From an uncultured Roseburia sp. (lineage in GTDB: Bacteria > Bacillota > Clostridia > Lachnospirales > Lachnospiraceae): DNA of 58,746 nucleotides. This document shows, piece by piece, positions 16,149-37,850 of this stretch (position 1 is its first letter; each line of letters starts with the position of its first letter). A program made the position numbers and the translations under genes. The notes under the pieces were generated by a model. The model saw only the letters and a list, made by a program, of their open reading frames with translations. It searched no databases and was not told the DNA's origin. The stretch covers positions 1 to 58,746 of the forward strand of contig CAMUHN010000011.1 of assembly GCA_947088675.1 (NCBI GenBank), given 5' to 3'.

Positions 16149-17309
16149 TTATTCCATGATAAGGTCAAGCATTTGCTGCAGCCTGACTTTATAGCTGTGG
16201 GAACGCTTTACTTTTTGATATCCGTTTGCAGCAATACGCCTGCGCTCCTCCTCATGTTCCAGATAGTACTGCGCCTTTTCGCACATATCCTCAGTGCCGT
16301 CAAAACAGACAAGATCCTCCCCTTCCCGAAAAAAAGATCCCATCTCCGCCTGAAAATTAGTCAGCAGAAAACCACCCGAACCCAAAACATCCCAGACGCG
16401 CAGCGGTATCCCGCTTTTTATATCCGGTATGGTAATATTTAAGTTAACTTTAGAGGCATGAAATACTTTGGGCATCTGACTCCAATAATCTACAGAACCG
16501 CGATACTGCACGCGGATCAGATCGCTCACATTACTGTTGCTGTACACAACAACCTGGTGGCGTTTGGAAAGCTCAATCAGCGCACGCCTGCGCTGCCGCT
16601 CCGCTATCTTAAATCCAAGAACGGTGGTCTGAAAGATCAGTCCCAGATCCGAAAAGGAATCTTTTGATTTTTCCAGGTGAAAATACTGTTCCAGTTGTTC
16701 CATTATTTCTGTTGTCAACAGCGGTTCTACAATATTCGCCCCGCTGATATTCATCTGCGCTTCCATCACGGCGTCAAAATATCCCAGCAGATAATCCGAC
16801 AGCCTGGCTTTTAATTTGTCATAGGAATTGCGCTCATACAGGCTGCCGACAAATGAGATATCACCGCCATATTGCTCCAGGTCATCCGCTCCCGACAGAA
16901 TATCGTCAATGCGGTCGGTGTCGACCGCCAACGGCAGATACCAGATCTTTGACAGCCCCATCCCCTTAAACTCCAGATAATTTGTCTGATCAAAAGTAAA
17001 GATATAATTGCACGGGTTAAATACCGAATTATGATACATGCTGATCAAAGGGTTGTCACATGTCCATGCCGCATATTTCACACCGCATTTCATGCATACA
17101 CTGGAAACAAGTGAAAAATAGTTTACCGTAAAAACGAGATCGTATTTTTTCAGACGCAGCCTGCCTGTCAGCTCCTGCTCAAACACAGGATCCTCGTCAT
17201 AATTCTCCAGTTTATACTCAAAAATATCGACACCGTGGCCCATGGCTGCAAGAGTCTGTTCGATATCTCTGTAATTATAAGCTTTCCACCGGTATATTAA
17301 GATTTGCAT
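16149..17309 (-). CDS. CgeB/DUF3880-type glycosyltransferase
   Basis: 386 aa, cytoplasmic, GT-B type by pattern. The N-terminal part (MQILIYRWKAYNYRDIEQTL, KYDLVFTVNYFSLVSSVC) matches the DUF3880 style; the C-terminal part has the nucleotide-sugar binding signature SGIPLRVWDVLGSGGFLLTN, then a helix ending EEERRRIAANGYQKVKRSHS as in the CgeB-like Glyco_trans_1_2 group. Relatives in this window are 23914-25068, 34052-35233 and 35246-36421. Its ATG lies inside the end of the upstream gene (13-bp overlap), with GGAG seven bases before it, so the two are translationally coupled. It is the last gene of the 20563-16149 operon. Sugar donor and acceptor are unknown. Confidence 0.82.
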   Translation of the reverse strand: MQILIYRWKAYNYRDIEQTLAAMGHGVDIFEYKLENYDEDPVFEQELTGRLRLKKYDLVFTVNYFSLVSSVCMKCGVKYAAWTCDNPLISMYHNSVFNPCNYIFTFDQTNYLEFKGMGLSKIWYLPLAVDTDRIDDILSGADDLEQYGGDISFVGSLYERNSYDKLKARLSDYLLGYFDAVMEAQMNISGANIVEPLLTTEIMEQLEQYFHLEKSKDSFSDLGLIFQTTVLGFKIAERQRRRALIELSKRHQVVVYSNSNVSDLIRVQYRGSVDYWSQMPKVFHASKVNLNITIPDIKSGIPLRVWDVLGSGGFLLTNFQAEMGSFFREGEDLVCFDGTEDMCEKAQYYLEHEEERRRIAANGYQKVKRSHSYKVRLQQMLDLIME

Positions 17310-18493
17310 ATCAGTTCTCCATAAATATATTCCGCGCGCTGCATCCAGGTATGATTTTTCTGCGCATATTCATATCCGCGGTCAGCCATTGCCTGCGTTT
17401 CCTTTAAATTACCGAATAATTCAAAAAATCGCTCCGGCAAATCTGTGATCTGCTCCAGGGAAAACAATACCAGCTCGTCTCTGTCATGGCATACCCTGTT
17501 CAAATAATCCGACCCATCGGAGACAACGGCCGCCTTTGCGAGCATTCCGTTAAAAATTCGATCATGCGCCCCTGCCTTAAACCATGTATTTGTGTTTAAC
17601 ACAATTTTTGCATCATTCATCAGCGACAAAACCTGCGGCGCCGGCACCTTTCCGCCACAGGTCAGATACGGATTGAAACTCCACTCACACTGATCCCAGC
17701 CAATCCCGTATGCCGTGACTGATATTCCGTTTTCAACGAGAATACGAACAGCCTGCTCGCGAAAAAAAGAAGTTGCATAGGAGTCAAGAAAACGCATTTT
17801 TACAATGATCTGTGCAAGCCGCTCGTCTGAGATATCCTGACACTGATCCCTCAGATAATCTTCCACAACTTCCTCCGTCGTTTTCCATGGATGATGCACC
17901 AGTTCATCCAAAACAGCTTTTGCCATTTCGTTTCCGTCTGTTTCCGGAATGGAAGCAAGGTCGGGTATCATACGCCCAACGGTATAAACCGGCAGAGCGC
18001 CGGCATAGAGCACATCAATTTTACGCTCTGCAAGCGGCTTGTGACGATGGCCAAGTTCTACCCCCGCATGGGGCAGAAATCCCGTCTTCTTTATATTCTT
18101 ATAAAACCTGCGGATATAACGGACATGATTCTGATCGGTACAGAGAACAACGGATGTTGTCGGAGCGCCGGCAAGCGGGCGTTTATAGTGAAACGGATGA
18201 TCCATCAATATATTGATATAACAGACATTGTAATATTCCCAGATATTTACCGGGCGTTCCCCACTGCCCGGAATAATTTCCAGATTATAGCCTAAATTGT
18301 TAAATGTAACACAGACAGCGCTGTCCGCGCTTGTTTCCAGCAGTTCCTGTAATGCCTCTTTCCCCTCGTCTCCTGCACCGGCACAGTATGTGAAAGTATG
18401 ACAGCCCAGCTGATAAAACGACTGTTTCAGCTGTTCCGTAAATAAATCCAGCGTATCATAGATCCCAGTAATAAATATAACCGTTCTTTTCAT
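17297..18493 (-). CDS. CgeB-like glycosyltransferase
   Basis: 398 aa. The start (MKRTVIFITGIYDTLDLFTE) and a middle segment (INILMDHPFHYKRPLAGAPT) are those of spore-coat CgeB-like glycosyltransferases. The C-terminal half (ILVENGISVTAYGIGWDQCE, NTNTWFKAGAHDRIFNGMLA, AVVSDGSDYL) aligns with the C-terminal domain of the 817-aa protein at 31524-33977, rather than with the DUF3880 set. GGAG precedes the ATG. It lies 19 bp after the preceding GT2 gene and overlaps the next one. Substrate unknown. Confidence 0.78.
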   Translation of the reverse strand: MKRTVIFITGIYDTLDLFTEQLKQSFYQLGCHTFTYCAGAGDEGKEALQELLETSADSAVCVTFNNLGYNLEIIPGSGERPVNIWEYYNVCYINILMDHPFHYKRPLAGAPTTSVVLCTDQNHVRYIRRFYKNIKKTGFLPHAGVELGHRHKPLAERKIDVLYAGALPVYTVGRMIPDLASIPETDGNEMAKAVLDELVHHPWKTTEEVVEDYLRDQCQDISDERLAQIIVKMRFLDSYATSFFREQAVRILVENGISVTAYGIGWDQCEWSFNPYLTCGGKVPAPQVLSLMNDAKIVLNTNTWFKAGAHDRIFNGMLAKAAVVSDGSDYLNRVCHDRDELVLFSLEQITDLPERFFELFGNLKETQAMADRGYEYAQKNHTWMQRAEYIYGELICKS

Positions 18494-18512
18494 GTGTCAC
18501 TCCATATCCTGT

Positions 18513-19589
18513 TCACAGACCTGCAAGCTGTCTGACTGCAGGCTTGTAATCTCCGCATTTTTTATAAAATGCAGCTGCTTTTTCTTTTTTCCCCAGGCAT
18601 TCAAAAATCACCCCGATATTATAGAACGCCGAATAGGAATTTACACCTTTTGTCCGGCAGGATGCAAATTCGGTTGCTTTTAAAAATTCACTGACAGCCT
18701 GATCGAAACATTCGTTATTCATATAGATTAAACCCATCAGGAACTTAAAATCAGCCGTTTTGCCAAACTCGTCATAAATATTTTCAAAAAACAGCGCCTC
18801 TTCTGCCCGGCCGCCGTTCAGCAGCGCATAACCATATGTCTCAACCATATCAATCACATATTCCAGTTTCGGATTCAGATCAAAGGAAAGTCCTTCGGAA
18901 AAATATGCAGCCGCCGCGCCGTAATCTTTTGCCATATAACAGCTTTTTCCAAGCTGATAAATAATATAGGGAAGCTGCCGATCCCGCTCTTTTTCATCCG
19001 ACAGGCCGCAAAGCCGCTCATACTCCTGCTGCAAAAGCAGGCGATTTCTCTCTGCTTTCCTCTGCCTCTCATCCGGCGTCAGATCATATCCGGTATGGCA
19101 GATTACAACAGGCGTCTGATAGGTTTCATAATCTCCGCCCGCAGCCGCTTCCACCTGTTCATGTATCCTGCCCCGATAACAGTAGAGATCTCTGGAAAAG
19201 ATGCGGTTCAGCCACTCCGTATACTCCTGCTCCAGTTCGTTTTGCGTAAAGAGATTCACCCTCTGAATACGTCCAACCTGCTTCGGATGATGCGCAATCA
19301 GATCTTTCAGACGGCCCATGTCGCATGATCGGATCGATTCGTCACAGTCAAGCACCAGAACAAACGGATTGGAAGCTTTCTGCAGTGCAAAGTTTTTCGC
19401 AGCTGCAAAATCATCACACCATTCAAACTCAAATACATGCGGCGTATACTGCCGCGCAATTGTTTTTGTTGCATCCGCAGAGCCGGTATCCACAACTATA
19501 ATTTCCGAATTAAGCGGCGTCAGACTTTTCAGACAGCGCTCTATATTTTTTTCCTCATTTTTTGCGATGATACAGACCGATAATTCCAT
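18513..19589 (-). CDS. Family 2 glycosyltransferase with TPR domain
   Basis: 358 aa from MELSVCIIAKN. The N-terminal GT2 domain has CIIAKNEEKNIERCLKSL, IIVVDTGSADATKTIA and the metal-binding VLDCDES; IHEQVE closes it. From ~190 on, tetratricopeptide-like helices follow (ALLNGGRAEEALFFENIYDE, FYNIGVIFECLGKKEKAAAF). This layout matches GT2-TPR enzymes such as the SunS group, which can glycosylate proteins. A longer frame begins 16 codons upstream but overlaps the preceding gene; the ATG at 19589 has a GGGGATAAGAAG leader and leaves a normal 14-bp gap. Confidence 0.82.
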   Translation of the reverse strand: MELSVCIIAKNEEKNIERCLKSLTPLNSEIIVVDTGSADATKTIARQYTPHVFEFEWCDDFAAAKNFALQKASNPFVLVLDCDESIRSCDMGRLKDLIAHHPKQVGRIQRVNLFTQNELEQEYTEWLNRIFSRDLYCYRGRIHEQVEAAAGGDYETYQTPVVICHTGYDLTPDERQRKAERNRLLLQQEYERLCGLSDEKERDRQLPYIIYQLGKSCYMAKDYGAAAAYFSEGLSFDLNPKLEYVIDMVETYGYALLNGGRAEEALFFENIYDEFGKTADFKFLMGLIYMNNECFDQAVSEFLKATEFASCRTKGVNSYSAFYNIGVIFECLGKKEKAAAFYKKCGDYKPAVRQLAGL

Positions 19590-19603
19590 ATTCTTCTTAT
19601 CCC

Positions 19604-20563
19604 CTATGTATTCAGCATTCCATAAAGCTTCTGGCACAGAGCCACAGCTTCGTCCAAATTCTGTTTCAGCCCGCTGTTCTCCTTTAACAGTGTCATCATA
19701 GACTGGTAAGACTCGTCATTTAAGCCCTGTAAAAAGACTGGCTCCATCAAATCAAAATAAAACGGCGTCATTTTGGCGTAATCCCACCAGAGCCTCTCCG
19801 TACTGTAGTGCACTCCGTTATAATTCCACGGTTTTCTTCCTGCATAATGTATAATTGTGCATTCTTCTCTGATCCGGGCATAATCCATTCCGTCCATCTC
19901 GGCAAGCTGCGAAAAAACATTGTAACGTCTGTTATCAAAATAACAGACCTCGTCCGCATGCAGATAGTTTAAAAGATCCTGATCGGGATTGGTCAGCTGA
20001 AAGGAAAATTTTGCCGCAGCTCTCATATAGTCCGCAAATTTATACTGTTTTCTCAATTTCTCAAGATCAAACAAAATCACTCCGGAGTTAAAGTACCGCA
20101 CTGTTTGCGGAAATTCCGAAAAGATCCGCTGCTGCGCCAGACTGAAATTCCCCTGAATCATCGGATCATCCGCCACGCCCAGCAGCTTTCCGCCCAAATC
20201 AGTCTGATAAAACGCAAACAACGGCCCGTTTACGATCACATCCACATCCAGATACAGGATCCGGGATACCTCCTGCGGCAAAAGCTCCCCGTACAAAAGA
20301 CGATAATACATTTCTTTCGACCAGTTCTCCGTTGTCGGCAGTTTTTTAATCTCATCGGAGAGATCAACCTGCAAAAAAACAATCGTCTGCCGATACCTGT
20401 CTGCCAGCTGCCCAAACGAAGACCTGTCTTCGTCTGTCAGATCGGACGAGAGCAGATAAACAGTAAGACAGTCCGGCGCATCCTTATGATGATAAAAAAG
20501 AGAGGTCAGTAAAACGTATGCGTATTTTGTGTAGTTGTGGTTAAGCGCTATGCTGATGTTCAT
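19604..20563 (-). CDS. Family 8 glycosyltransferase
   Basis: 319 aa from MNISIALNHNYTKYAYVLLT. GT8 signatures are the DxD metal site in YLDVDVIVNG (D106, D108), FNSGVILFDLEKLR, NPDQDLLNYLHADEV and the terminal HYAGRKPW. GT8 enzymes are retaining galactosyl- or glucosyltransferases using UDP-sugars. An ATG 20 codons upstream lies only nine bases from the predicted transcription start, so the ATG at 20563, after GGGGT, is preferred. Two paralogues lie at 25081-27065. First gene of its operon. Confidence 0.88.
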   Translation of the reverse strand: MNISIALNHNYTKYAYVLLTSLFYHHKDAPDCLTVYLLSSDLTDEDRSSFGQLADRYRQTIVFLQVDLSDEIKKLPTTENWSKEMYYRLLYGELLPQEVSRILYLDVDVIVNGPLFAFYQTDLGGKLLGVADDPMIQGNFSLAQQRIFSEFPQTVRYFNSGVILFDLEKLRKQYKFADYMRAAAKFSFQLTNPDQDLLNYLHADEVCYFDNRRYNVFSQLAEMDGMDYARIREECTIIHYAGRKPWNYNGVHYSTERLWWDYAKMTPFYFDLMEPVFLQGLNDESYQSMMTLLKENSGLKQNLDEAVALCQKLYGMLNT

Positions 20564-20638
20564 ATTACCCCGATTCTGTGACATTGTATGGATAACACTG
20601 CAAACAATATTCCTGTCAATCATAAAGTTTCTATCTTT

Positions 20639-20856: not shown

Positions 20857-22677
20857 TTACTCTTCTCCCAGCGCTTTTAAGATCGTTTCCACTGCTTCCT
20901 CCATGTCGCAGATGCTGGTGTCTATTGTCAGTTCCGGATTCTCCGGCGTTTCGTAGACACTTGTAATCCCGGTAAAATTAGGAATTTCTCCGTTTCGCGC
21001 TTTTTTATATAAACCTTTTACATCACGCCTCTCACATTCTTCCAGCGGCGTGCTGACATAAATTTCAAAAAAATCTTCTCCGATAATGTCCCGCGCCTTT
21101 TTTCTGTCCTTTCCGTAAGGGGAAATAAATGCGGTTAAAACGATCAGGCCTGCATCGTTCATTAATTTCGCCACTTCCGCAATCCTGCGGATATTTTCCA
21201 CTCTGTCCGACTCTTTAAAGCCAAGATTGCGGTTTAATCCCATACGAATGTTGTCGCCGTCAAGCAGCATCGTATGCCTTCCCAATGCAACAAGCTTCTT
21301 TTCCAGCTCATTTGCAAGCGATGATTTTCCGGAACCGGACAGTCCGGTAAACCAGATTGTACGCGGCTTCTGATTTTTCTGCTCTGCGCGTATTGCTTTC
21401 GTAATATCGGTTTCCTGCCATACAAGATTATTGGAACGGCGAAGCGTATGCAATACCACGCCGCATCCGCAGGTCATATGTGATATCCGGTCGATCAGAA
21501 TAAAACCGCCCAGCGCCCTGCTCTTTTCAAATTCACACACTGCGCATTTTTCGGAGAGAATCAGGTCGCATACCACCAGTTCATTTTTGGCCGCAGTCTC
21601 CGCCGGAATATGTTCCCCTGTGTTCACATCTATTTTATATTTTATTTTCAGAACCGATGCGGGCAGCATCTTTGTTCCGATTTTAATCCAGTAATTTCTG
21701 CCGGAAATCAGCGTTTTGTCATCCATCCAGAGCACCTCGGCCGTAAACAGGTTTGTCACCTCAACCGGGGCATCCCTGCAGATAACACAGCCCCTCGAAA
21801 TATCAACTTCACGGTCAAGCGAAACCGTAATCGGGGCGCCAGCACATGCGCAGGAGACCTGCCTGTTTGTTTCGTAAATTTCTGTTACGCCTGCCGTCTC
21901 GCGGCTTGGCAGAATCTGTACGACATCGCCCACGTGAAGCTCACCGGATTCAATCTGCCCCTGGAAACCGCGAAATGCGTAATTCGGCCGGCTGACACGC
22001 TGAACCGGCATCAGAAAATCCTGTCCGTCCGAATAATCGGCTATCTCTGTCTCTTCCAGATATTTTAACAGCGTCTCGCCGCCATACCAGTCCATAAAAT
22101 CGGATTTTTTTGTAATATTGTCGCCCTCTGTCGCCGATACCGGTATCACTTTTAAACTCCCGACATGAAATTCCGACAGAAAATGCCTGATATCTTTCTC
22201 AATGGCATCAAAGACATTTTTCTCATATTTCACCAGATCCATTTTGTTTACTGCAAATACAAAATGACGTATTCCCATCAGGGAACAGATTCTGACATGA
22301 CGCTTTGTCTGAACAAGCATCCCCTGCGTCGCATCGACGAGTATCACCGCAAGATCAGCGAATGACGCGCCTACCGCCATATTTCTGGTATACTCCTCAT
22401 GTCCCGGCGTATCAGCCACAATAAAACTTCTCTGTTCGGTTGTAAAATAGCGATATGCAACGTCAATTGTGATTCCCTGTTCACGTTCCGCCATAAGGCC
22501 GTCAAGCAAAAGCGAATAATCAATCTCGCCGCCCCTGCTTCCGATTTTGCTGTCAAGTTCAAGCGCCTTCTGCTGATCGGCAAAAATCAACTTTGCATCA
22601 TAGAGCATATGGCCGATCAGAGTTGATTTTCCGTCATCTACACTGCCGCAGGTAATAAATTTCAACAAACTTTTCAT
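20857..22677 (-). CDS. cysNC: Bifunctional ATP sulfurylase GTPase subunit / APS kinase (CysNC, NodQ-like)
   Basis: 606 aa fusion. Residues 1-~430 are the CysN GTPase: P-loop GSVDDGKST (11-19), EREQGITIDVAYRYF switch, DTPGHEEYTRNM, NKMD. Residues ~440-606 are APS kinase (CysC): P-loop GLSGSGKSS (445-453), DGDNIR, FISPYGKDRKKARD. With CysD it turns sulfate and ATP into APS and then phosphorylates APS to PAPS, the universal sulfate donor. The leader GAGGGG lies within the cysD end, so translation is coupled. No PAPS reductase or sulfite reductase is nearby, and the pair is embedded among glycosyltransferases, so use for sulfation of a glycan is more likely than cysteine synthesis (inference). 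Confidence 0.95.
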   Translation of the reverse strand: MKSLLKFITCGSVDDGKSTLIGHMLYDAKLIFADQQKALELDSKIGSRGGEIDYSLLLDGLMAEREQGITIDVAYRYFTTEQRSFIVADTPGHEEYTRNMAVGASFADLAVILVDATQGMLVQTKRHVRICSLMGIRHFVFAVNKMDLVKYEKNVFDAIEKDIRHFLSEFHVGSLKVIPVSATEGDNITKKSDFMDWYGGETLLKYLEETEIADYSDGQDFLMPVQRVSRPNYAFRGFQGQIESGELHVGDVVQILPSRETAGVTEIYETNRQVSCACAGAPITVSLDREVDISRGCVICRDAPVEVTNLFTAEVLWMDDKTLISGRNYWIKIGTKMLPASVLKIKYKIDVNTGEHIPAETAAKNELVVCDLILSEKCAVCEFEKSRALGGFILIDRISHMTCGCGVVLHTLRRSNNLVWQETDITKAIRAEQKNQKPRTIWFTGLSGSGKSSLANELEKKLVALGRHTMLLDGDNIRMGLNRNLGFKESDRVENIRRIAEVAKLMNDAGLIVLTAFISPYGKDRKKARDIIGEDFFEIYVSTPLEECERRDVKGLYKKARNGEIPNFTGITSVYETPENPELTIDTSICDMEEAVETILKALGEE

Positions 22678-22679
22678 TC

Positions 22680-23579
22680 TTAAAAATACCCCTCTCTTTT
22701 ACGTCTTTCCATACTTCCTGCCGCTTCATGATCGATCACGCGGCTTGTCCGCTCTGAGGTAACAGCCGACAGCGTCTCGTCAATAATGGCCTCCAGCGTA
22801 TCTGCGTCCGATTCGCACGCCCCTGTCAATGGATAACATCCGAGTGTACGAAACCGGACTTTCTTCGTAACGATTTCCTCCCCGGGTTTTAATTTCATTC
22901 TGTCGTCATCCACCATAATAAGATTGCCGTCGCGATGTACAACAGGCCGCTCCTTTGCAAAATAGAGAGGGACTATTTCTATTTTTTCCTGTAAAATATA
23001 TTGCCAGATATCTTTTTCTGTCCAGTTGGATAACGGGAAAATACGAATCGATTCCCCTTTGTTTATTTTTGTATTATATAACTTCCACATCTCCGGTCTC
23101 TGATTTTTCGGGTCCCATGCGTGCTGTGCATTGCGGAACGAAAAAATCCGCTCCTTTGCCCTTGACTTTTCCTCGTCCCGTCTGCCTCCCCCGAACGCCG
23201 CGTCAAATCCGTACTTGTCAAGCGCCTGCTTTAAGGCCTGTGTCTTCATAATATCGGTATAAGAGGAACCGTGGTCAAACGGATTGATTCCCTGCTCCAC
23301 ACCGTCCCAATTTGTGTAAGTCAGCATCTCAATACCAAGTTTTTCCGCCGTCCTGTCGCGAAATGCAATCATCTCTTTAAATTTCCAGGTCGTATCGATA
23401 TGCAAAAAAGGGAAAGGCGGTTTTTCCGGATAGAATGCTTTCAGCGCCAGATGCAGCATAACGGAACTGTCTTTTCCGATGGAATAAAGCATTACCGGCT
23501 TCTCGCACTCTGCCGCCACTTCACGCATAATGTAAATCGCCTCTGCTTCCAACTGCTCTAAATGTGTCAACTCTCTCAT
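22680..23579 (-). CDS. cysD: Sulfate adenylyltransferase subunit 2
   Basis: 299 aa from [22 protein letters not shown]-loop ATPase motif SIGKDS at 33-38, [36 protein letters not shown] and the C-terminal [10 protein letters not shown] are all CysD. It catalyses sulfate adenylation together with CysN. A frame 11 codons longer exists, but GGAGG five bases before the ATG at 23579 sets the start. The 334 bp upstream, to the divergent gene at 23914, are A/T-rich with no other gene; I find no convincing minus-strand promoter there. Confidence 0.96.
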
Positions 23580-23819
23580 ATATGCCTCCAATAATATAAA
23601 TCCAGATTCCAAAACTGCCGATCGTCCAATATATTTCTATTTATTCTATCCCGTAAACAGAGAATAACACGGCAGTGAAGATTGGATAAATCTGACAGTT
23701 AAATATATATTTTTTTATTATAATGCCGACAGATTAAAACAAAATGAGAATAAAACATGCAGCAGTCCATCTGCTAATTTATACTTTTTTCATAAATTAT
23801 TTTTTTCCATCCATTTTAC

Positions 23820-23913: not shown

Positions 23914-25068
23914 ATGCATATTTTATATTACAATTGGTCCGAAAATTCCTCCGACGATATGAAAGATTGTTTTGCACAGATGGGATTTTTCTGTACGTCT
24001 CTCTCCTGCCCGTTCCACGACTACGATTCAGACGCCGGTTTTGAACAAATTCTGCAAAAAACAATAGAAGAGCATAACTTTGACCTGATCTTTACATTCA
24101 ATTACTTTCCCATTCTGTCAAAAATAGCAGATCATTACTGTCTTCCCTATGTGTGCTGGGTCTATGACTGTCCGCATTTCACACTCTATTCCAGACGGGT
24201 GTCGAGCCCCAGTACGTTCTTTTTCCTGTTTGACCGGGAAATGTGCCAAACGCTTTCCTCCCTTGGCGCGCTGCATGTCACGCATATGCCGCTCGCAGTC
24301 AATACGGCCCGTTTGTCGAAATATGCCGCTTCCACATGCAATAAGATGTATCCCGTATCCTTTGTCGGAAGCCTTTACGAAACAAACATGTATCGCAGGG
24401 TCTCCTATCTGCCGGATGACCTGAGAGGATATCTGGACGGCATCATCAATGCGCAGCAGCAAATAAAAACCGGAACTGTTCTTGGAGAACTGCTGACAGA
24501 AAGCCTGGTCGAAAAACTGCTGCAATGGATTCAACTGGACGAACAGAGTCTGTATCTTTATTCTGCCCACGATATTTATCTCTCAATGCTGGAAGCCGAA
24601 GTAACCTGCCGGGAGCGCATAAAACTGCTCACATTAGCCGCGGGATTCTGTGAAACGCATTTATTTACCGCTTCCGACTCATCGTTTGCTTCGGGCTGTA
24701 TCCCGCATGGATTTATTTCTTACAAAGAGGAGATGCCGATCGTCTTTCATAACTCGGCCATTAACCTTAATATTTCTCTGCGCTCCATACACTCAGGTGT
24801 TCCGCTCCGATGCATGGATATTATGGGAGCAGGAGGATTTCTGCTGTCCAATTGCCAACCGGAACTGACGGAGTATTTTCAACCCGGAGAAGACTTCGTA
24901 ACCTTTTTTTCGGAAGAAGATTTTCTGGAAAAAATTGCATACTATTCCGAACATGAAAAAGAACGGGCCGAGATTGCACAGAATGGATACCAGAAAGTGA
25001 AAGATAACTTTAATTACCCTGCTCTGTTTCAAAAAATCCTTGCTGCCATTACGTCCAATGTTTCATAA
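23914..25068 (+). CDS. CgeB/DUF3880-type glycosyltransferase (inverted)
   Basis: 384 aa, the only plus-strand gene in the island. N-terminal MHILYYNWSENSSDDMKDCF and FDLIFTFNYFPILSKIADHY, then YPVSFVGSLYETNMY and SGVPLRCMDIMGAGGFLLSN, the same signatures as 16149-17309, 34052-35233 and 35246-36421. GAGG five bases before the ATG and a near-consensus promoter give it its own expression. It converges on the GT8 gene at 25081 with a 12-bp gap, and a short GTTTC/GAAAC stem overlaps its stop. Substrate unknown. Confidence 0.82.
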   Translation: MHILYYNWSENSSDDMKDCFAQMGFFCTSLSCPFHDYDSDAGFEQILQKTIEEHNFDLIFTFNYFPILSKIADHYCLPYVCWVYDCPHFTLYSRRVSSPSTFFFLFDREMCQTLSSLGALHVTHMPLAVNTARLSKYAASTCNKMYPVSFVGSLYETNMYRRVSYLPDDLRGYLDGIINAQQQIKTGTVLGELLTESLVEKLLQWIQLDEQSLYLYSAHDIYLSMLEAEVTCRERIKLLTLAAGFCETHLFTASDSSFASGCIPHGFISYKEEMPIVFHNSAINLNISLRSIHSGVPLRCMDIMGAGGFLLSNCQPELTEYFQPGEDFVTFFSEEDFLEKIAYYSEHEKERAEIAQNGYQKVKDNFNYPALFQKILAAITSNVS

Positions 25069-26073: not shown

Positions 26074-26084
26074 TCTTTCCTCCA

Positions 26085-29404: not shown

Positions 29405-31507
29405 CTATTCCGCATTAAAATCGAATCCGATTTCCTCGGCTGCTTTCAGCAGCTTTCTCGGATTGTCGTCATTCATCTGCATAATGCTGCGGTCTGACAA
29501 TTCGATGACACTTGTGACTATCTTATCCGTATAGGGAAGACGAACCGTCTTTTTCTTTAACTGCCTGAACTTTTCCAGAATCTCTATAATCGGATACCCC
29601 TCTTCTTTCAGATAACTTTCTACACAGGAATTAACTGCCGAGGAATACCATTGTATATTTTCATAATCCAGCGCTTTACGTATCTGTTTGAAATTTTTCA
29701 GCGTATGCGTTCTTTCATAAATCGCTTCCATCGCGGTATACAGACTTGTCCAGTATGCTTTTCTGTCCATATTTTTAGACAGGGAATCCTCCGTATTTTT
29801 ATAGCGGTAAATAATTTCTTTCAGATTCCCGATGGAATCCGCCGTAGCAAATAAAACGTCCAGAAAATCAGCATCTTCCAGCATCGGTACATGCTCCCGA
29901 AACCGCAGGTGCTGCTCTTCGATCAGGGAACGGCGCACAATTTTGCTCCAGAGATAACCGCCTATACGGATCAGACGACTTCTCTTTGCATTATTTAATT
30001 CTCCGGTTTCCGTATCCGTTGTATACAAAGTAAGCGATTCTTTCTTGTCAAATACAAATCCGCCGTCTACCATATCGTAGTCGCCCTCTTTTGCTTTCGC
30101 ATACAGTTTTTCATACATCTGCACATCCGGCAGATCGTCTGCATCGACAAATCCGATATATTCCCCTGTGGCCAGATCAAGTCCGAGATTTCTGGCGCCT
30201 CCGGCTCTTCTGTTCTCCGGAGAAGCAATGACGCGGACTTTCTGCGGATACTGTCTCTGGCATTCCAGCAGAATACTAAGGCTGTTGTCTGTGGAACAAT
30301 CGTCCACAAAAATAATCTCGATATCCTCCAAAGTCTGATGCACCAGATTCCCGATGCATCCGGAAAACTGCTCCGACGCATTATAGACCGGCACAATCAC
30401 AGATACCTTTTTCGGCGGCATTCCTTCGTTTAAATAGTCGTAGTAAGACAATGTACCTGCCAGCTGCTTCTCAACAATCGAAAGCGCAACATCGGACACC
30501 GGAAATTCCAAAAAATAATCTTTTCCCGCCTCTCTTGCATTTTTTCCGTGTTCCCTCACCAGTTTACAGATATTTTTATAGTGTTCCGTCAGAACCGGCA
30601 TCTGGTTGGTAAAGTCAAGCAGTCCCGAAACGCCGGCCTTTCTCTCCTCGTGCATGATAAACAGAAGCTGTTCGAGCACAGGAATTTCACCACGGATATC
30701 TGAGATCTGTTCCCTGATATCCGGACGCAGTTTCAGATATCCGTAAAACAATTCTTTCGCCTGGTCAATATCGCCGCTTTGCATCAACGCTGTAATTGCC
30801 TGTTTAAATTCAACCGTTTCGGCTTTCTCCGCCGTGATGCCGATCCTGCATGCATACGCGTTTAATTTCCTTGCCCTGACCCAGACATAGAGCAGTACTT
30901 CCGATAAAAATCCAAACAACCGCTTATGGTACATATCATAGGAAGAGACATCTATCTTATCTCCGATTTCTAAAAAAACAGGAAAAAGCCATGCGCAATA
31001 CTCGTCAAACAGTTCTTTTTTACAGACCATCAGATTCCCATAGCAGCATTTGTCATCTTCCATCACCTCTTCAAAAGCTGCATAATCATCCGGATAAAGC
31101 ATCTGAATTGCATCCGCCACTGCATTTAACTCGGCGATGCTGTGCGCTCTCGCATAATTTTCCCTGTTTGTACCGCCGGAAGACGGCAAATCCGAAATCA
31201 TCAGGTCATACTCCTCTAAAATGCGCTGATAGTCGGATGCAGACATGATCATTCCGTCTTCATTTAAAAAGTAACGCCTGTAATGGCAGATTCCGATTAT
31301 ATCCGCCTCTGTTTCATTCTTCCAGATCCAATAAATACCGGTCAGTTCCCCATAAAATTCGTTTAAATCCGAAATATTATCCCCGGTATCATCTCCCAAA
31401 AATCCAAGATCTTCTGAAACGGCCCTGCCAACCTGCATCGGAACATACACCGAGTCCTGCGGCGGTGTAAAAGCTCTGTGCGTCATCGTGTATATTTTGA
31501 TATCCAT
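29405..31507 (-). CDS. DUF4422 - GT2 two-domain glycosyltransferase
   Basis: 700 aa. The N-terminal ~240 residues are a DUF4422 domain (MDIKIYTMTHRAFTPPQDSV, YWIWKNETEADIIGICHYRRYF), which occurs in capsule and exopolysaccharide transferases. Residues ~365-600 are a GT2 domain: KKVSVIVPVYNASEQFSGCI, IIFVDDCSTDNSL, RRAGGARNLGLDLATGEYIG and the metal site FVDADD. Having two catalytic-type domains suggests it adds two sugars or a repeat. GGAG precedes the ATG. Linkage unknown. Confidence 0.85.
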   Translation of the reverse strand: MDIKIYTMTHRAFTPPQDSVYVPMQVGRAVSEDLGFLGDDTGDNISDLNEFYGELTGIYWIWKNETEADIIGICHYRRYFLNEDGMIMSASDYQRILEEYDLMISDLPSSGGTNRENYARAHSIAELNAVADAIQMLYPDDYAAFEEVMEDDKCCYGNLMVCKKELFDEYCAWLFPVFLEIGDKIDVSSYDMYHKRLFGFLSEVLLYVWVRARKLNAYACRIGITAEKAETVEFKQAITALMQSGDIDQAKELFYGYLKLRPDIREQISDIRGEIPVLEQLLFIMHEERKAGVSGLLDFTNQMPVLTEHYKNICKLVREHGKNAREAGKDYFLEFPVSDVALSIVEKQLAGTLSYYDYLNEGMPPKKVSVIVPVYNASEQFSGCIGNLVHQTLEDIEIIFVDDCSTDNSLSILLECQRQYPQKVRVIASPENRRAGGARNLGLDLATGEYIGFVDADDLPDVQMYEKLYAKAKEGDYDMVDGGFVFDKKESLTLYTTDTETGELNNAKRSRLIRIGGYLWSKIVRRSLIEEQHLRFREHVPMLEDADFLDVLFATADSIGNLKEIIYRYKNTEDSLSKNMDRKAYWTSLYTAMEAIYERTHTLKNFKQIRKALDYENIQWYSSAVNSCVESYLKEEGYPIIEILEKFRQLKKKTVRLPYTDKIVTSVIELSDRSIMQMNDDNPRKLLKAAEEIGFDFNAE

Positions 31508-31523: not shown

Positions 31524-33977
31524 TCACCTTTGCTCTATAATTTCCAGCAGCTGTGCTGTGCGCACGTCCCACGTATGTTCCTTAAGCGCTCTCTTTTGCC
31601 CACAGGCTGCAATCTTTGCCATTTTCTCCGGATGCCCCAACAGATACCTGATCTGCTCCGCTAACTGCTTTGGTCTTTGCAAATCGAACAGAATCAGTTC
31701 TTTCTGATCTTTCAGGTTCTCGTTTAGATACCAGCTCCGGTCCGATGCGGCAACGGCCCCGCAAAGCATAATATTTGCAATGCGTTCCGTAAAACCGCCC
31801 TTGTGCCAGGACATAATATTGAGTGATATTTTGGAATTTTTCCAGACCTTCAGACTTTCCTCCACACTCACTGCATCATGTAAGATCAAATTGGGATTGG
31901 CAGCCAGAGGGCACTTTCTCCAGCTCTCTCCATAGACATGAACCGGTATCCCCTCTCTCAACAAAATACGTATGACTTTTTCCCTGTAATATGTCATAAT
32001 TGCAAAGCAAACCTGTTTCATATCAAACAAAACACTCTTAAATGCCTCCCTGTCCAACGAAATCCGGTAATAGGCAAGAGCCTGCTCAAATGCCTCCTCC
32101 GCGCGCAGATTCGGCTGTTTTTTCATAATCAAAAGAAATCGGTTTGCCAGATACCGCTCGTCTGTCTTTGTATTTCTGATAAACAGGAGCCTTTCTCTGT
32201 AATCATGCCAGGTTCCGATAAAAGTCACATCAAGGCTTCGCGCGGCCATATCCGGGACTTTTTCAATGGTATCTCCACTCACAATACCTGCCGGCGGCAG
32301 AACATAACACTTTTTTACCTCTCTCTCAAAGTATGTCTGAATAAATTCCTGATAATCTCTGCCATGCGTCAATACATAGTAATCCTGCGGGCCATTTTCC
32401 AGATGCTCTTTCATCCATAACGGATGGTCAAAGATAAAATGATATTTCGGCCCATAGATGGAATCATGCAGATTTTTTCCGTTCTGAAATTTGACGCCAA
32501 ACAGATAGGTCTGAAAACCGATGACTGCCTTAAAGGTACGTCCGCAAAGACTTAAGAGCCCCTGCACGCCGCGGCTCGCCTCATCATAAACCTCCACCTG
32601 TTCTCCCGCCGCACGCAGCGAAGCGATCAGCCGCCCTGCAAAATCGTTTAATACATTATAACAGATCGTATCGCCTTTATATACAAGGATCGGACTTATT
32701 TTCTCCAGATGCCTGTGATATTCCTCTCCGCGTGAGAGCATCTGTTCCAGACAGGCTGTCCCGTCGTCAAACCGCCCCAGCTGCCTGGCTTCTTCTAACA
32801 GCGTTTCTGTCTTTGTCAGAAAACTCCCGTCTTTCTGCAGCCGCTCACTTTCATAGGCAAGCAAAAAACATTTTTTTTGAAATGCTGCCCATGACTGCCG
32901 CGCCTCCTGCTCTTTTTGCTTCCGTCTTTTTTCAAAAATCGGATTCCACTGCTGTATGCGGCCTTTCTGAAGCAGGGCGGAATACTGCTCCATACAGCGC
33001 ACTCGTTCCTCCCCGGTAAGCGTCTCTCCAAACATATCTGTTAAAAGCCCGACATCCGCTTTCCACAGATATGGATTATCAAAAGAATTACCTGCATATA
33101 CTGCAAGATCCTCTTTCATCTGCAGATAAACCGATTCGGGGATCATCTTCCACTCCAGGAACATGCCAAGCAGATTCATTACCGCATGGCTTTTTAAAAA
33201 CTTTGCCAAAAGCTCCGCCGGCATCTGTTCCGTCAGTCCGCGCGCCTGATATTCTTCCATCAGAATGGTCTGCATTTTCATACTCTGCATAAAATTCTGC
33301 TCATCCGGATGTTTTGTACTGGATTCGGCACGCTCCACATAGTGATAGAAACTTTCTTTACAGATATAATAACTTTTGATCTCTGTATTCATCAGAGACT
33401 GCCAGAAATTATCCTCATACAGCGTGCCTTCCGGAAAAAAGATGCCGCGTTCTCTCACAAAATCAGTGCGGTAGATTCTCGCCGCAAATGTCACGGCAGT
33501 CCCTGACAAAATCAGCTGCTTTCTTTTTTCCGGGGTATCTACCTCCTCATAAGTCCGCTGCGGCAGACAGTCGCTGACACTTCTTACACTGCCATCTGCA
33601 GAATCAACAAAATAGCCGCCTCCAACCATCGTACAGCCGAATTTTCTGGCTGCATCATACAGTTTTTTATACATATCGGGTTCCACAAAGTCGTCCGCAT
33701 CAAGAAATCCAAGATATTCTCCTGTCGCATAAGACATACCGGCATTGCGCGCCGCACCCTGCCCGCTGTTTTTATCGAGGTTAACAATAAGCACACTGTC
33801 CGGACATATCGCCTCCACCGCAAGCAGCGCTTCATAGGTGCGGTCGGTGGAACCGTCGTTTACAAAAATAAATTCCAGTTCTTCCCTGCCGATCGTCTGG
33901 GCTATCAGCGATTTGGCACAACGCGCAATGGTATCCTGTGCATTGTAACATGGGATTACAATACTGACTTTTTTCAT
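31524..33977 (-). CDS. GT2 - CgeB-like two-domain glycosyltransferase
   Basis: 817 aa, the largest gene of the island. Residues 1-~220 are GT2 (MKKVSIVIPCYNAQDTIARC, FIFVNDGSTDRTYE, GQGAARNAGMSYATGEYLGF, metal site LDADD). A helical middle carries a coiled-coil-like KRRKQKEQEARQSW. From ~590 a second domain (DVTFIGTWHDYRERLLFIRN, ILLREGIPVHVYGESWRKCP, ISLNIMSWHKGGFTERIANI) aligns with the C-terminal half of 17297-18493. A sigma-28-like promoter (34027-34054) sits 50-77 bp upstream, and GGGGGT precedes the ATG. Confidence 0.83.
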   Translation of the reverse strand: MKKVSIVIPCYNAQDTIARCAKSLIAQTIGREELEFIFVNDGSTDRTYEALLAVEAICPDSVLIVNLDKNSGQGAARNAGMSYATGEYLGFLDADDFVEPDMYKKLYDAARKFGCTMVGGGYFVDSADGSVRSVSDCLPQRTYEEVDTPEKRKQLILSGTAVTFAARIYRTDFVRERGIFFPEGTLYEDNFWQSLMNTEIKSYYICKESFYHYVERAESSTKHPDEQNFMQSMKMQTILMEEYQARGLTEQMPAELLAKFLKSHAVMNLLGMFLEWKMIPESVYLQMKEDLAVYAGNSFDNPYLWKADVGLLTDMFGETLTGEERVRCMEQYSALLQKGRIQQWNPIFEKRRKQKEQEARQSWAAFQKKCFLLAYESERLQKDGSFLTKTETLLEEARQLGRFDDGTACLEQMLSRGEEYHRHLEKISPILVYKGDTICYNVLNDFAGRLIASLRAAGEQVEVYDEASRGVQGLLSLCGRTFKAVIGFQTYLFGVKFQNGKNLHDSIYGPKYHFIFDHPLWMKEHLENGPQDYYVLTHGRDYQEFIQTYFEREVKKCYVLPPAGIVSGDTIEKVPDMAARSLDVTFIGTWHDYRERLLFIRNTKTDERYLANRFLLIMKKQPNLRAEEAFEQALAYYRISLDREAFKSVLFDMKQVCFAIMTYYREKVIRILLREGIPVHVYGESWRKCPLAANPNLILHDAVSVEESLKVWKNSKISLNIMSWHKGGFTERIANIMLCGAVAASDRSWYLNENLKDQKELILFDLQRPKQLAEQIRYLLGHPEKMAKIAACGQKRALKEHTWDVRTAQLLEIIEQR

Positions 33978-34026
33978 AGCTGACCCCCGTTCTTTCCTGA
34001 TGTTTCTTATTATAGCTATTTATATT

Positions 34027-34054
34027 ATATCGGCATAAACAGCCGTTTTCTTTA
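34027..34054 (-). promoter_or_regulatory. Sigma-28-like promoter inside the glycosyltransferase island
   Basis: Minus strand: -35 TAAA (34051-34054, overlapping the stop codon of the upstream gene), 16-bp spacer, -10 GCCGATAT (34027-34034). The -10 box is closer to consensus than those of flagellin, flaG and flgM in this window. The spacer is one base longer than the usual 15. It would bring 33977-25081 under flagellar control. Confidence 0.55.
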
Positions 34055-35233
34055 TTTTTTGGCAAAATTATCAAATACAATCTCTATGATCTGCGGAACG
34101 ATCACTTCATAGCTGTAATCCGTCCGGACAGCTCTCTGTCCGTTTTCCGCTATTTCAATCCTCTCCTTCTCATGAGAGAGGTAATACTCTGTCTTCGCGA
34201 GCAGATCCTCTCTGCTCTCAAAATAGACATAATGCTCATTCGCATTGAAATGACGAAAGAAATCCGCCTGATAATTGGTAAGCAGAAAACCTCCGCAGTT
34301 TAAAATATCCATACACCGCAGCGGAATCCCGGAAGATATACTGCGCAGTGTAATATTCAGATTAATCTTGCTGTTTGCAAACACGTAAGGCATTTCGGTA
34401 TAATAATCAGCCGTACCCATATTTGCAGCCTTTGCGACAGGCGCATTGCGGTCAATGGTATATAATTTTAATGAAAATCGTTCTGCCACCGCATTTAATA
34501 ATTCGATTCTCTCCAACTGCGTAATTTTTCTGTCTATAAAATAGTTCGCAAACACATATTCCAGCGTCTGGACCCCATAGCGGTCCAGCTGATATCCCGA
34601 CGCTTTCTGCATATCAGAAATAACAGCCGGCGTCAGCACATCCTCAATAAAATGATAACCATATACTTTGCGCTGTGCATCCATAATTCCTTCCAGATAT
34701 CCGCGCGTATAATCGCTGACCCCGTCCAGTCTTCCATAAAAATCATGGTCCTCATGATAAAGCGTACCGACAAATGACACGTCAGCCTTGTAACGCAGCA
34801 AATCCTTCGGCCGTTTCTGCAGAACATTTCGTATCCGATTGGGATTTACCGGCAGCGGCAGATAATAAACCGTAGTAATTCCCTCTTTCTGCAATCTTGC
34901 CGCAAGCTCGCTGTCAAAAATAAAAACAAAATTGCAGGGATTAATAATCGTATATGAAAAAACCGCTACCTGCGGACTGTCATATATAATGGAGAGATAC
35001 GGAATATTATGACGTTTACACCCCTCCGACATCAGCGGATAGTAATTAAACGAAAAGGCAAAATCCGCATCCTTAACTGCCAGATCAAAAGCTTCGTCAA
35101 ACGACGCATCCTTTCTCTCTGTATAATGATCATGAAAAAAAGAGAGCACTTCCATTCCCAGCATGGAAAATGTCTCTAATATATCCGCTTTTCCAAAGCA
35201 GGGCCAATCCAGATATAAAACTTTTTTTGCCAT
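34052..35233 (-). CDS. CgeB/DUF3880-type glycosyltransferase
   Basis: 393 aa. N-terminal MAKKVLYLDWPCFGKADILE and DFAFSFNYYPLMSEGCKRHN; middle DVSFVGTLYHEDHDFYGRLD; C-terminal SGIPLRCMDILNCGGFLLTN followed by EKERIEIAENGQRAVRTDYS. It resembles most closely its neighbour 35246-36421 (shared LEGIMDAQRKVYGYHFID pattern), which suggests tandem duplication. AAAGGGA precedes the ATG; the gap from the upstream gene is 12 bp. Substrate unknown. Confidence 0.83.
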   Translation of the reverse strand: MAKKVLYLDWPCFGKADILETFSMLGMEVLSFFHDHYTERKDASFDEAFDLAVKDADFAFSFNYYPLMSEGCKRHNIPYLSIIYDSPQVAVFSYTIINPCNFVFIFDSELAARLQKEGITTVYYLPLPVNPNRIRNVLQKRPKDLLRYKADVSFVGTLYHEDHDFYGRLDGVSDYTRGYLEGIMDAQRKVYGYHFIEDVLTPAVISDMQKASGYQLDRYGVQTLEYVFANYFIDRKITQLERIELLNAVAERFSLKLYTIDRNAPVAKAANMGTADYYTEMPYVFANSKINLNITLRSISSGIPLRCMDILNCGGFLLTNYQADFFRHFNANEHYVYFESREDLLAKTEYYLSHEKERIEIAENGQRAVRTDYSYEVIVPQIIEIVFDNFAKK

Positions 35234-35245: not shown

Positions 35246-36421
35246 TCATAGTCCAAATGCCTGTTCCATCATCCGACTCACACGAATCGGATACGTATGG
35301 CATTTCCTTACTTTTTCATAACCCTGATCTGCAATTTCTTTTCGTCGTTTCTCATGTTCCAGATAATAGGCGCATTTTTCGATAAGTTCTTCCTGGCTGG
35401 AATATGTTTCAATTTCCTCGCCAACCGTAAAATACTCCGGAATTTCGGACTGAAAATTTGTCAGACAAAACCCTCCGCAGCCAAGGATATCCCAGATTCG
35501 AAGCGGAAGTGCACTGCGAATGGATTTAGCCGTCATATTTAAATTGATGCGGCTGTGATGAAATATAAGCGGCATCTCTGTCAGTGTCTTTGCAAAACCT
35601 CTCGGGTGAATATCCGGAAGCATTGAAGTATCGCTACCGGTATACAACTGCACATGAAAAATTTTTGAAACTGCAGAAAGCATACGCTGCCGCTCAAGCG
35701 CTGTAATCCCTGATGCAAGATAATATTGCGATACCAGCATACGGTCTGTCTGTGCATCCGCATATGGCAGCGAGAGGAAATCTTTTGTATTTTGCTTAAA
35801 TTCCGAAATGATCTTTTCCGTCAGTACAGTATCTATAAAATAATAACCATATACCTTTAATTGCGCCTCCATTAACCCCTGCAAATATCCCGCAAGATAT
35901 CCGCTGTGCGTAAATTGATCAAACGGACATTTCTCGGTATAGAGCGATCCAACAAATGTGATATCCGATTGAAAACGTATTTTTTCTTTTTCTGACACAG
36001 CTGCAATGACAGCCTGTTTCTGTTCCGTATTGACAGCCAGCGGAAGATAAAAAATATTTTGAGGGTTCATCGGAGCAATCTCATCATATAAGACACGGTC
36101 AAATAAAAAAACACGGTTCCAGGGAAGACGTATGGAAGCGGCATATAATTCCGTCACCGGAGAATCCACAATCCAACAGAGATAACGAATTTTTAAGATA
36201 TTACAGACTTCAGCCAGAAATGGATAAAAGTTTATGCTGAACACAAAATCATGCGGCTGATCCATCAGGATACGGCTTACCAGATTCACACCCTGTTCCG
36301 GTGTAAAATTTTTGTTTTTTATTTCTTCCGTGATTTCCGTCACCTGAAATCCAAATTCCATAAACGTGGAAAGCATATCCGGCTCACAGATGCTTCCATA
36401 TCGGTAAAACAGTACATTCAT
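35246..36421 (-). CDS. CgeB/DUF3880-type glycosyltransferase
   Basis: 391 aa, first gene of the 36421-25081 series. N-terminal MNVLFYRYGSICEPDMLSTF, HDFVFSINFYPFLAEVCNIL; middle DITFVGSLYTEKCPF; C-terminal SALPLRIWDILGCGGFCLTN and EKRRKEIADQGYEKVRKCHT. No strong ribosome binding site is seen close to the ATG (AAAGG is 14 bases away). It is adjacent to the flagellin terminator and divided from it only by a palindromic repeat and a promoter. Confidence 0.83.
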   Translation of the reverse strand: MNVLFYRYGSICEPDMLSTFMEFGFQVTEITEEIKNKNFTPEQGVNLVSRILMDQPHDFVFSINFYPFLAEVCNILKIRYLCWIVDSPVTELYAASIRLPWNRVFLFDRVLYDEIAPMNPQNIFYLPLAVNTEQKQAVIAAVSEKEKIRFQSDITFVGSLYTEKCPFDQFTHSGYLAGYLQGLMEAQLKVYGYYFIDTVLTEKIISEFKQNTKDFLSLPYADAQTDRMLVSQYYLASGITALERQRMLSAVSKIFHVQLYTGSDTSMLPDIHPRGFAKTLTEMPLIFHHSRINLNMTAKSIRSALPLRIWDILGCGGFCLTNFQSEIPEYFTVGEEIETYSSQEELIEKCAYYLEHEKRRKEIADQGYEKVRKCHTYPIRVSRMMEQAFGL

Positions 36422-36478
36422 AATCTTTGTTATGCCTTTCCCTGTCGTCTTAAAGGTTATTTTTTCTCTTATTTTTCT

Positions 36479-36601: not shown

Positions 36602-36655
36602 TCTTGCAGGAAAGACACTTTCACGCTTTAGCATAACGAGGTCTTTCCTGTCAAA
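36602..36655 (-). repeat. Palindromic repeat, family B, copy 5 (diverged)
   Basis: TCTTGCAGGAAAGAC pairs with GTCTTTCCTGTCAAA; the core is 10 bp. The minus-strand interior (AGGAAAGACC, GTTATGC, GAAAGT) still aligns with the copy at 15947-16003. It immediately follows the flagellin terminator. Confidence 0.75.
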
Positions 36656-36656
36656 T

Positions 36657-36688
36657 AAAAAAAGAACCGGCGAACCGGTTCTTTTTTT
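36657..36688 (-). terminator. Flagellin terminator
   Basis: GAACCGG-CGAA-CCGGTTC (36664-36681) with A/T runs of about seven on each side, 25 bp after the flagellin stop codon. The symmetric runs would let it work in both directions. Confidence 0.9.
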
Positions 36689-36713
36689 ATTATGTTTGTG
36701 TCTGTCAGACAAA

Positions 36714-37673
36714 TTAACCAAGGATGGATAATACGCCCTGTGTAGACTGATTTGCCTGTGCAAGCATTGACTGACCAGCCTGTGCGAGGATGTTGTTCTT
36801 CGTGTACTCAACCATCTCGTCTGCCATGTCTGTATCACGAATCTGGGATTCAGCTGCCTGTGTATTCTCAGCGGTTGTATCCAAGTTAGCGATTGTGTGC
36901 TCCAGACGGTTCTGAACAGCACCAAGAGTAGATCTCATAGCAGATACTTTCTCGATCGCTGCCTGTACGAATGTCATAGCGTTACCAGCGTTAGAGAATG
37001 TGGAAACGTTAATCTCATTGTAAAGAGCAGTTGTTGTTGTAACAGATGCAGATACTTTCGAGAATGAAGTATTGCCTGCTGAGTTAACTTTACCTGATGA
37101 TGTAGAGTTAACCTTTGTAGAGCCGACTTTCATTGTTGTGATGGAGTTAGCATTTGTTGTACCTGTTGCAAATAATTTACCGCAGGACATAGCTGTGATA
37201 GATACGGAAATCTTCTGCTGAGCCAAAGCACCAACCTGTAAGTTCTTTCCTGTGAAAGAGCCGTCTAACAGGTTCTGTGTGTTGAACTGTGTTGTAGAAG
37301 AAATACGGTTGATCTCAGATGCTAACTGGTTCATCTCAGCCTGGATTGCGTTACGATCAGATGTCGTATTTGTGTCGTTTGCTGCCTGTGTAGCGAGCTC
37401 ATTCATACGCTGTAAGATAGAATGTGTCTCGTTTAATGCACCCTCAGCTGTCTGAATTAAGGAAACGCCGTCCTGTGCATTAGAAGAAGCTTTGTTCAGA
37501 CCACGGATCTGATTTCTCATCTTCTCGGAAATTGTTAAGCCTGCTGCATCATCTGCTGCACGGTTTACTTTGTAACCAGAAGATAATTTCTCTGTGGATT
37601 TCGCCTGCTGACCAGTTGTGATACCTAACTGTCTGTTAGAGTTCATTGCCTGCAAATTGTGCTGTACTACCAT
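36714..37673 (-). CDS. Flagellin
   Basis: Major filament protein, 319 aa (fliC/hag type). D0/D1 N-terminal residues 1-~140 (MVVQHNLQAMNSNRQLGITT, SSGYKVNRAADDAAGLTISE, LQRMNELATQAANDTNT) and C-terminal ~235-319 (STLGAVQNRLEHTIANLDTT, ending QANQSTQGVLSILG). The conserved TLR5-contact segment is at 87-97. The short central part (~165-225) is very rich in Ser and Thr and holds an unusual Cys164; it offers many O-glycosylation sites. Export is by the flagellar type III system, so there is no signal peptide. It has a sigma-28 promoter, a long leader with CsrA sites and its own terminator. Confidence 0.97.
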   Translation of the reverse strand: MVVQHNLQAMNSNRQLGITTGQQAKSTEKLSSGYKVNRAADDAAGLTISEKMRNQIRGLNKASSNAQDGVSLIQTAEGALNETHSILQRMNELATQAANDTNTTSDRNAIQAEMNQLASEINRISSTTQFNTQNLLDGSFTGKNLQVGALAQQKISVSITAMSCGKLFATGTTNANSITTMKVGSTKVNSTSSGKVNSAGNTSFSKVSASVTTTTALYNEINVSTFSNAGNAMTFVQAAIEKVSAMRSTLGAVQNRLEHTIANLDTTAENTQAAESQIRDTDMADEMVEYTKNNILAQAGQSMLAQANQSTQGVLSILG

Positions 37674-37681
37674 AATATATT

Positions 37682-37713
37682 CCTCCTTGAATATGTCGCA
37701 GCTTCCATGCTGC
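37682..37713 (-). promoter_or_regulatory. CsrA-binding sites in the flagellin leader
   Basis: Minus-strand RNA: GCAGC-AUGGAA-GCUGC (37698-37713) is a 5-bp stem with a hexaloop carrying AnGGA, the high-affinity CsrA motif. A second GGA is the Shine-Dalgarno AAGGAGGA (37681-37688), nine bases away. This is the arrangement known for Bacillus hag, and csrA and fliW lie 4.3 kb upstream in the same window. Confidence 0.75.
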
Positions 37714-37823
37714 CTTATTTATTGATGGGTAACAAAGATGCCACTCATCAAATATGCTATCATCACAGCCGTACGCTCTGTAAATCTTTCACTTTGAAGT
37801 AACTCTTTGTTTACTTACTTTAT

Positions 37824-37850
37824 ATATCGGATGAACGCTCCGATACTTTA
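37824..37850 (-). promoter_or_regulatory. Sigma-28 promoter of flagellin
   Basis: Minus strand: -35 TAAA (37847-37850), 15-bp spacer, -10 TCCGATAT (37824-37831). The predicted leader is ~140 nt. The -10 lies in a 7-bp inverted repeat, TATCGGA-N7-TCCGATA. Confidence 0.85.

Follow-up and report, generated by a model that had tools for sequence, protein, structure and literature searches.

What is glycosylated by the products of thirteen glycosyltransferase genes that stand next to a flagellin gene? The question is raised by a stretch of 58,746 nt (hereafter the window) from a genome that lies closest, among named relatives, to an uncultured Roseburia (87.6% complete, assembled as 122 contigs totalling 3.17 Mb). 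The genes occupy positions 16149–36421, and all thirteen transferases announced in the preliminary description of this DNA were recovered by Pfam; the two further genes of the interval encode enzymes of sulfate activation. Comparison at the sequence level makes it likely that the interval serves to glycosylate the flagellum. It is best read as an island of the kind known from Clostridium, without the Maf transferase and with a protein that combines a family 2 glycosyltransferase (GT2) domain with tetratricopeptide repeats (TPR), varied here by a set of CgeB-type enzymes, a sub-operon linked to sigma-28 and genes for synthesis of the sulfate donor 3'-phosphoadenosine 5'-phosphosulfate (PAPS). 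The GmaR-like GT2-TPR protein, the pair of PAPS genes and a Ser/Thr-rich insert in the flagellin are observations that the preliminary description did not contain.

The flagellin and a GmaR-like transferase

The flagellin gene (36714–37673, minus strand; Flagellin_N and Flagellin_C in Pfam) adjoins the island, and the variable region of its product (residues 141–235) measures 95 residues, of which 31 are Ser or Thr (32 in the sister species). The same region comprises 45–54 residues with 8–16 Ser/Thr in 23 flagellins of relatives, compared at more than 300 bits and at least 250 residues, with the larger flagellins of about 500 residues left out; among the 25 proteins the enlarged insert is seen only in the source species and its sister. 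No membrane segment is predicted in any of the 15 island proteins (seven were predicted in a P-type ATPase taken as control), which suits a modification carried out in the cytoplasm.

The protein encoded at 18513–19637 (minus strand, 374 residues) is the proposed flagellin-initiating transferase. Its GT2 domain (PF00535, 72.3 bits against a cut-off of 23.3) is followed by TPR (PF07719, 38.8 bits against 27), which further TPR models also match. The best match among the solved structures of the PDB is GmaR (E 3.8e-29, residues 18–206), and the SunS-type peptide S-glycosyltransferases match less well (E from 1.5e-12). In Listeria the N-terminal transferase domain of GmaR, likewise a GT2 domain followed by TPR, transfers N-acetylglucosamine (GlcNAc) to flagellin (excerpt of PMC9638930), and in Clostridium GT2 proteins with TPR have been proposed to act on flagellin in islands that are Maf-less or mixed (excerpt of PMC13317340). 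Fuller matches to the 18513 protein are found in about 20 of the 60 genomes of the genus (47–87% identity, or split pieces at 53–70%).

From these data we infer a target, an order of action, a co-expression and a sulfation as follows. A sigma-28 promoter would drive flagellin synthesis, and the GmaR-like enzyme would place the first sugar on Ser or Thr of the enlarged variable region while the protein is still in the cytoplasm. Chain extension before export would then fall to the soluble CgeB, GT8, GT11, GT4 and GT2 enzymes; six of their genes would be expressed together with the late flagellar genes from a sigma-28-type promoter of their own. The products of cysD and of a cysN-cysC fusion would provide PAPS for sulfation of the glycan by an as yet unrecognised sulfotransferase.

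The sigma-28-type promoter and the transcription units

The preliminary description had reported a sigma-28-like site in front of the gene for an 817-residue fusion of GT2 and CgeB-like domains (31524–33977, minus strand). This site is present at 34026–34054 on the minus strand (TAAA-N17-CCGATATA), with both the TAAA and the CCGATAT-type elements. Together with the site of the flagellin gene (37823–37850, minus strand; TAAA-N16-CCGATATA) it accounts for the only two matches to the strict pattern TAAA-N15-17-CCGATATA in the window, where 0.05 would be expected and none of 100 shuffles reached two. In the sister species (loci L001/L088) both elements are unchanged and the spacer between them differs at four positions; in a further species (L002) both elements recur ahead of a GT2-CgeB gene 57% identical to the 817-residue one. 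The claimed link to the flagellar regulon thus finds support, at the level of sequence, in the rarity of the pattern and in its conservation.

Among relatives, 32 loci with 593,291 bases in total gave 23 matches to the strict pattern against 0.1 expected under a first-order random model. Eighteen of them lie before flagellin, one before flaG, one inside a cgeB gene and three between island genes. Besides the L002 site, which precedes the GT2-CgeB gene, the intergenic matches are those of L046 (genome G041), ahead of a 120-residue open reading frame (ORF) followed by a nucleotide-sugar dehydratase gene, and of L072 (G054), ahead of a 119-residue ORF followed by an MptE-like gene. These two islands are of the Maf/nonulosonate kind and, like the island of the window, have internal sigma-28-type sites. 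With the flagellin spacing, TAAA-N16-CCGATA is found in 23 of 31 flagellin upstream regions, two of those without it being shorter than 50 bp. A looser pattern (TAAA N14-18 CCGATA) was set aside as weak genome-wide evidence, with 79 matches in the genome and 39 for a reversed control. Its third match in the window falls inside cysN-cysC; of 30 genome loci fetched two were not parsed, and in the 28 examined 24 matches lie inside ORFs, the flagellin and transferase sites being among the four outside. The flagellin promoter also holds an inverted repeat, TATCGGA...TCCGATA, which arises from a reversed copy of the -10 element and could be the site of a regulator; TATCGG occurs in 12 of 23 exact flagellin promoter sites.

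A strong terminator-like hairpin with a near-symmetric stem and T/A runs (36654–36691, minus strand, reported on the plus strand) separates the flagellin gene from the island. This places the internal promoter at the flagellin-proximal end and not, as had been stated, in mid-island. Because of the terminator, the two CgeB-type genes at 36421–34052 (35246–36421 and 34052–35233, minus strand; DUF3880 and Glyco_trans_1_2 in both, with homologues close to other flagellin genes of the genus) are probably transcribed from a promoter of their own. At 36507–36479 there is a TTTACT-17-TATAAT site preceded by TG, although such sites are as frequent in the sequence as in shuffles (40 against 38.0).

Behind the sigma-28-type site starts a unit of six closely packed genes on the minus strand (33977–25081; gaps of 16, 8, 3, 15 and -1 bp). 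The gene for the 817-residue fusion is followed by those for a DUF4422 and GT2 protein (29405–31507), a GT4-like protein with Glyco_trans_1_4 (27981–29396), a GT11 enzyme (27081–27977) and two GT8 enzymes (26085–27065 and 25081–26085). The earlier figure of at least seven transferases in this unit holds for Pfam transferase domains, of which there are seven besides the one DUF4422, but not for genes. Residues 214–673 of the 817-residue protein and 1–295 of the GT4-like one are blank in Pfam. Judged by the promoter match, the six genes are probably made together with the late flagellar genes.

Beyond the unit lies a CgeB-type gene on the opposite, plus strand (23914–25068), and then a third block on the minus strand (23612–16149) that begins with cysD. 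After cysD (22680–23612) and cysN-cysC (20857–22677) it comprises a GT8 gene (19604–20623), the GmaR-like gene, a CgeB-like gene with Glyco_trans_1_2 (17297–18493) and a CgeB-type gene (16149–17309); in all, five island genes carry DUF3880/CgeB-type domains in Pfam. The far border of the island is formed by a short FliD-like gene on the plus strand (14514–15806, profile matches), placed between the island and nusG, which in turn follows the rpoC/rpoB and ribosomal protein genes at the start of the window. Relatives show the same border, with homologues of the FliD-like gene there in L002, L004, L005, L086, L091, L093 and L095. On the other side, flagellin is followed by genes for FlgN/FliT-like, FliS, FliD, FlaG, FliW, FlgL, two FlgK-type and FlgN proteins; the two FlgK-type hook-associated genes differ from each other and form a tandem pair (44093–47705). 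Adjoining this flagellar block is a tellurite-resistance-type group with two TerD genes, TelA and a YceG-domain gene (51361–56083).

The sulfate activation genes

The genes for the sulfate adenylyltransferase small subunit (cysD) and for the fusion of its large subunit with adenosine 5'-phosphosulfate (APS) kinase (cysN-cysC; PRK05506, 842 bits against a cut-off of 715) both score above the NCBIfam cut-offs, and their products make PAPS. Most simply, this PAPS would serve sulfation of the glycan assembled by the island. The fusion is present in 18 of the 60 genomes, G027 with a broken cysC-like fragment being left out. In six of them (the source genome, its sister, G043, G036, G023 and G041) it lies within the flagellin island, downstream of flagellin on the same contig; the interval between fliC and nusG extends over about 100 kb in G023, and the contig of G041 ends before nusG. 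In the remaining genomes the fusion lies elsewhere or could not be placed; in G051 it shares a contig with flagellin at a distance of about 750 kb.

Sulfotransferase-related families are found in six genomes, namely PF03567 in G043, PF00685 in G059, G023, G041 and G001, and PF10364, whose link to sulfation is a suspicion, in G023, G043 and G036. Each of these six also has the fusion, which 18 of the 60 genomes carry (Fisher p 3.7e-4, uncorrected for relatedness), and so does each of the five that remain without PF10364 (p 1.6e-3, likewise uncorrected). The genes concerned lie within the fliC–nusG interval at 3–6 kb from cysN-cysC in G043 and at 9–31 kb in G023 and G036; in G059 one such gene stands beside cysD, and the stretch of roughly 60 kb seen around it shows no flagellin gene. 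No sulfotransferase was found in the 87.6%-complete source genome with PF13469, PF03567, PF00685 and PF10364, other families not having been searched, and the sister lacks the latter three. A cryptic sulfotransferase in the island was considered and rejected, all 13 genes other than the cys pair having glycosyltransferase-type Pfam matches; nor was one found among the 15 different ORFs scanned, of 36 listed, in two other polysaccharide loci of the source genome (L133 and L134). A family of about 450 residues, weakly like CDP-glycerol glycerophosphotransferases in the two members tested, occurs in three islands with cysD-cysN-cysC (L043, L046 and L047).

Archaellin glycans are sulfated in haloarchaea; for bacteria no paper describing a sulfated flagellin was found among the open-licence papers of PMC. 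In the excerpts of PMC5207246 and PMC5207245, the type B system of Clostridium difficile resembles the present one in its transferase locus beside fliC and in that no glycosulfotransferase gene was recognised. The finished glycan there has GlcNAc as its first sugar and carries a sulfur-containing group, a sulfonated peptidylamido sugar, whereas PAPS genes would here indicate a sulfate ester. A flagellin with a sulfated O-glycan, started by the GmaR-like enzyme, extended by CgeB, GT8 and GT11 enzymes and sulfated from island-made PAPS by an unrecognised sulfotransferase, with several lineages of the Roseburia group carrying such islands at the same fliC–nusG site and some of them in place of Maf, is put forward as a tentative proposal, more doubtful than not.

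The sulfate genes could instead be passengers that serve cysteine synthesis from sulfate, an explanation that is less likely than not but carries appreciable weight. A gene of one cluster, of which the member tested is an NMT1-type ATP-binding cassette (ABC) binding protein, lies close to the fusion in 11 of 17 fetched loci and suggests uptake of a sulfur compound. Moreover, the genus-wide searches for three sulfotransferase-related families gave no match in 12 of the 18 genomes with the fusion, and no sulfotransferase was found in the source genome. Against a role in cysteine synthesis, no transporter adjoins cysD-cysN-cysC in the window, and the APS-reductase-like flavoprotein (named by its context) tracks cysN without cysC, being present in exactly the 15 of 60 genomes with that arrangement and not found in the source genome or its sister. 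The only other match to the PAPS-reductase family in the source genome is weak and split over a 460-residue ORF, of a kind also seen in G004, which gave no cysD-like match.

Flagellin loci of the genus and rival explanations

Maf/nonulosonate islands also occur in the genus beside flagellins of the type found here, often with the same CgeB pair next to flagellin. PF01973 exceeds its cut-off in 27 of the 60 genomes, and a Maf-sized match directly follows flagellin, by coordinates, in 13 of 20 loci fetched (taken from the top flagellin matches, some of them at contig ends); the Maf N-terminal domain was confirmed in one of these, L074. In the window, no Maf gene was found beside flagellin and no nonulosonate synthesis gene among the Pfam matches of the island, which in this differs from those islands. 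The reported absence of such genes holds for the island but not for the whole genome, where two NeuB genes score above cut-off (contigs C3 and C52) and the sole MptE-like match, below its cut-off, lies on C52. A CgeB homologue is located within 10 kb of flagellin in 16 of the 20 loci; two of the other four end early at contig ends, and L080 and L084 lack CgeB homologues. A literature lead to CgeB and flagellin (PMC11913394) proved false, 'CGEBM' being the name of an institute. The CgeB pair next to flagellin occurs in both Maf and Maf-less islands, and so is not in itself an alternative to Maf.

The preliminary description had envisaged a wholly different route based on CgeB, GT8 and GT11. This is not supported, as the island holds an enzyme of a recognised initiating type (GT2-TPR/GmaR-like) and Maf-less flagellar glycosylation islands are described in Clostridium. 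In the excerpt of PMC13317340 those islands likewise have a variable gene set beside flagellin, a GT2 and TPR enzyme proposed to act on it and further transferases. They differ from the present island, which has PAPS-synthesis genes, several CgeB-type enzymes and an internal sigma-28-type promoter, and is bordered by the FliD-like gene and nusG and not by flgB–fliD.

A flagellar role is favoured by the sister species, where the island keeps its place beside flagellin with the same gene order. Several observations weigh against such a role. In L002, where the promoter is kept, the island adjoins housekeeping genes on the side on which flagellin would be expected, and the 7.4 kb seen there hold no flagellin gene; this partly matches the refuting observation named in the preliminary description, an island found away from flagellar genes in close relatives. 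The GmaR-like gene is 17 kb away from flagellin, and its orthologues are also found in Maf-bearing genomes (G041, G046 and G026 among them), for which reason a mutual exclusion of Maf and GT2-TPR proteins was rejected. The match to GmaR is confined to the GT2 part, and GmaR has 637 residues with an antirepressor domain, the seat of its second function with the partner MogR, for which the 374 residues here leave no space (excerpt of PMC9638930). The spacer to CCGATA measures 17 at the transferase site in all three species against 16 at flagellin; for sigma-28 of Butyrivibrio 16–17 is given in the excerpt of PMC3720852. An exact sigma-28 site is found in only four of 120 upstream regions of island homologues, in three species, and is absent within 250 bp upstream of cysD.

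The island might make a surface polysaccharide, a capsule or wall glycan, and owe its place beside flagellin merely to the variability of this chromosomal site. The island of L002, with no flagellin next to it in the part seen, would fit this, as would the great length of the fliC–nusG interval in G023 and the presence of Wzy_C (O-antigen ligase family) and capsule-type genes in that of G043. It is nevertheless unlikely, since the island of the window has no predicted membrane protein, gives Pfam matches to neither Wzy nor a flippase nor an initiating phosphosugar transferase, and holds both a GmaR-like enzyme and a sigma-28-type promoter. Less probable still is that flagellin is decorated from outside the locus, by a nonulosonate route relying on NeuB and the MptE-like protein of C52, and that the island modifies something else. 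Both NeuB genes score above cut-off and the MptE-like ORF lies about 4 kb from that of C52, but it scores 27 bits against a cut-off of 34.6 with no Maf N-terminal domain reported. Moreover, the 20 kb seen of the C52 locus (L133) show no flagellar gene; the first ORFs of this locus are a phage integrase and a TnpB-like (Cas12f1-like TNB) one, for which reason it may be mobile. The name CgeB, which goes with the domains of five genes, suggests a role at the spore coat, as in Bacillus. An action of these enzymes there is very improbable given their recurrent place near flagellin (16 of 20 loci) and the sigma-28-type promoter.

If it is a flagellar glycosylation island, the locus bears on Roseburia-type flagellins, which are major antigens in the human gut. 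Nothing was found in the literature searched on the glycosylation of these flagellins, and a paper on Eubacterium and Roseburia flagellin contains no word starting with 'glycos'. The flagella of the source organism probably bear a coat of sugar, which might in turn be sulfated. Such sulfation is a possibility that is unpublished for bacteria as far as the open-licence PMC literature shows. If the reading as a glycosylation island is right, a whole genus varies the coat of its flagellin at one chromosomal site by means of Maf, GT2-TPR and perhaps sulfation modules, and sulfated flagella on a commensal would matter for its contact with mucus, its recognition by the immune system and the binding of phages.

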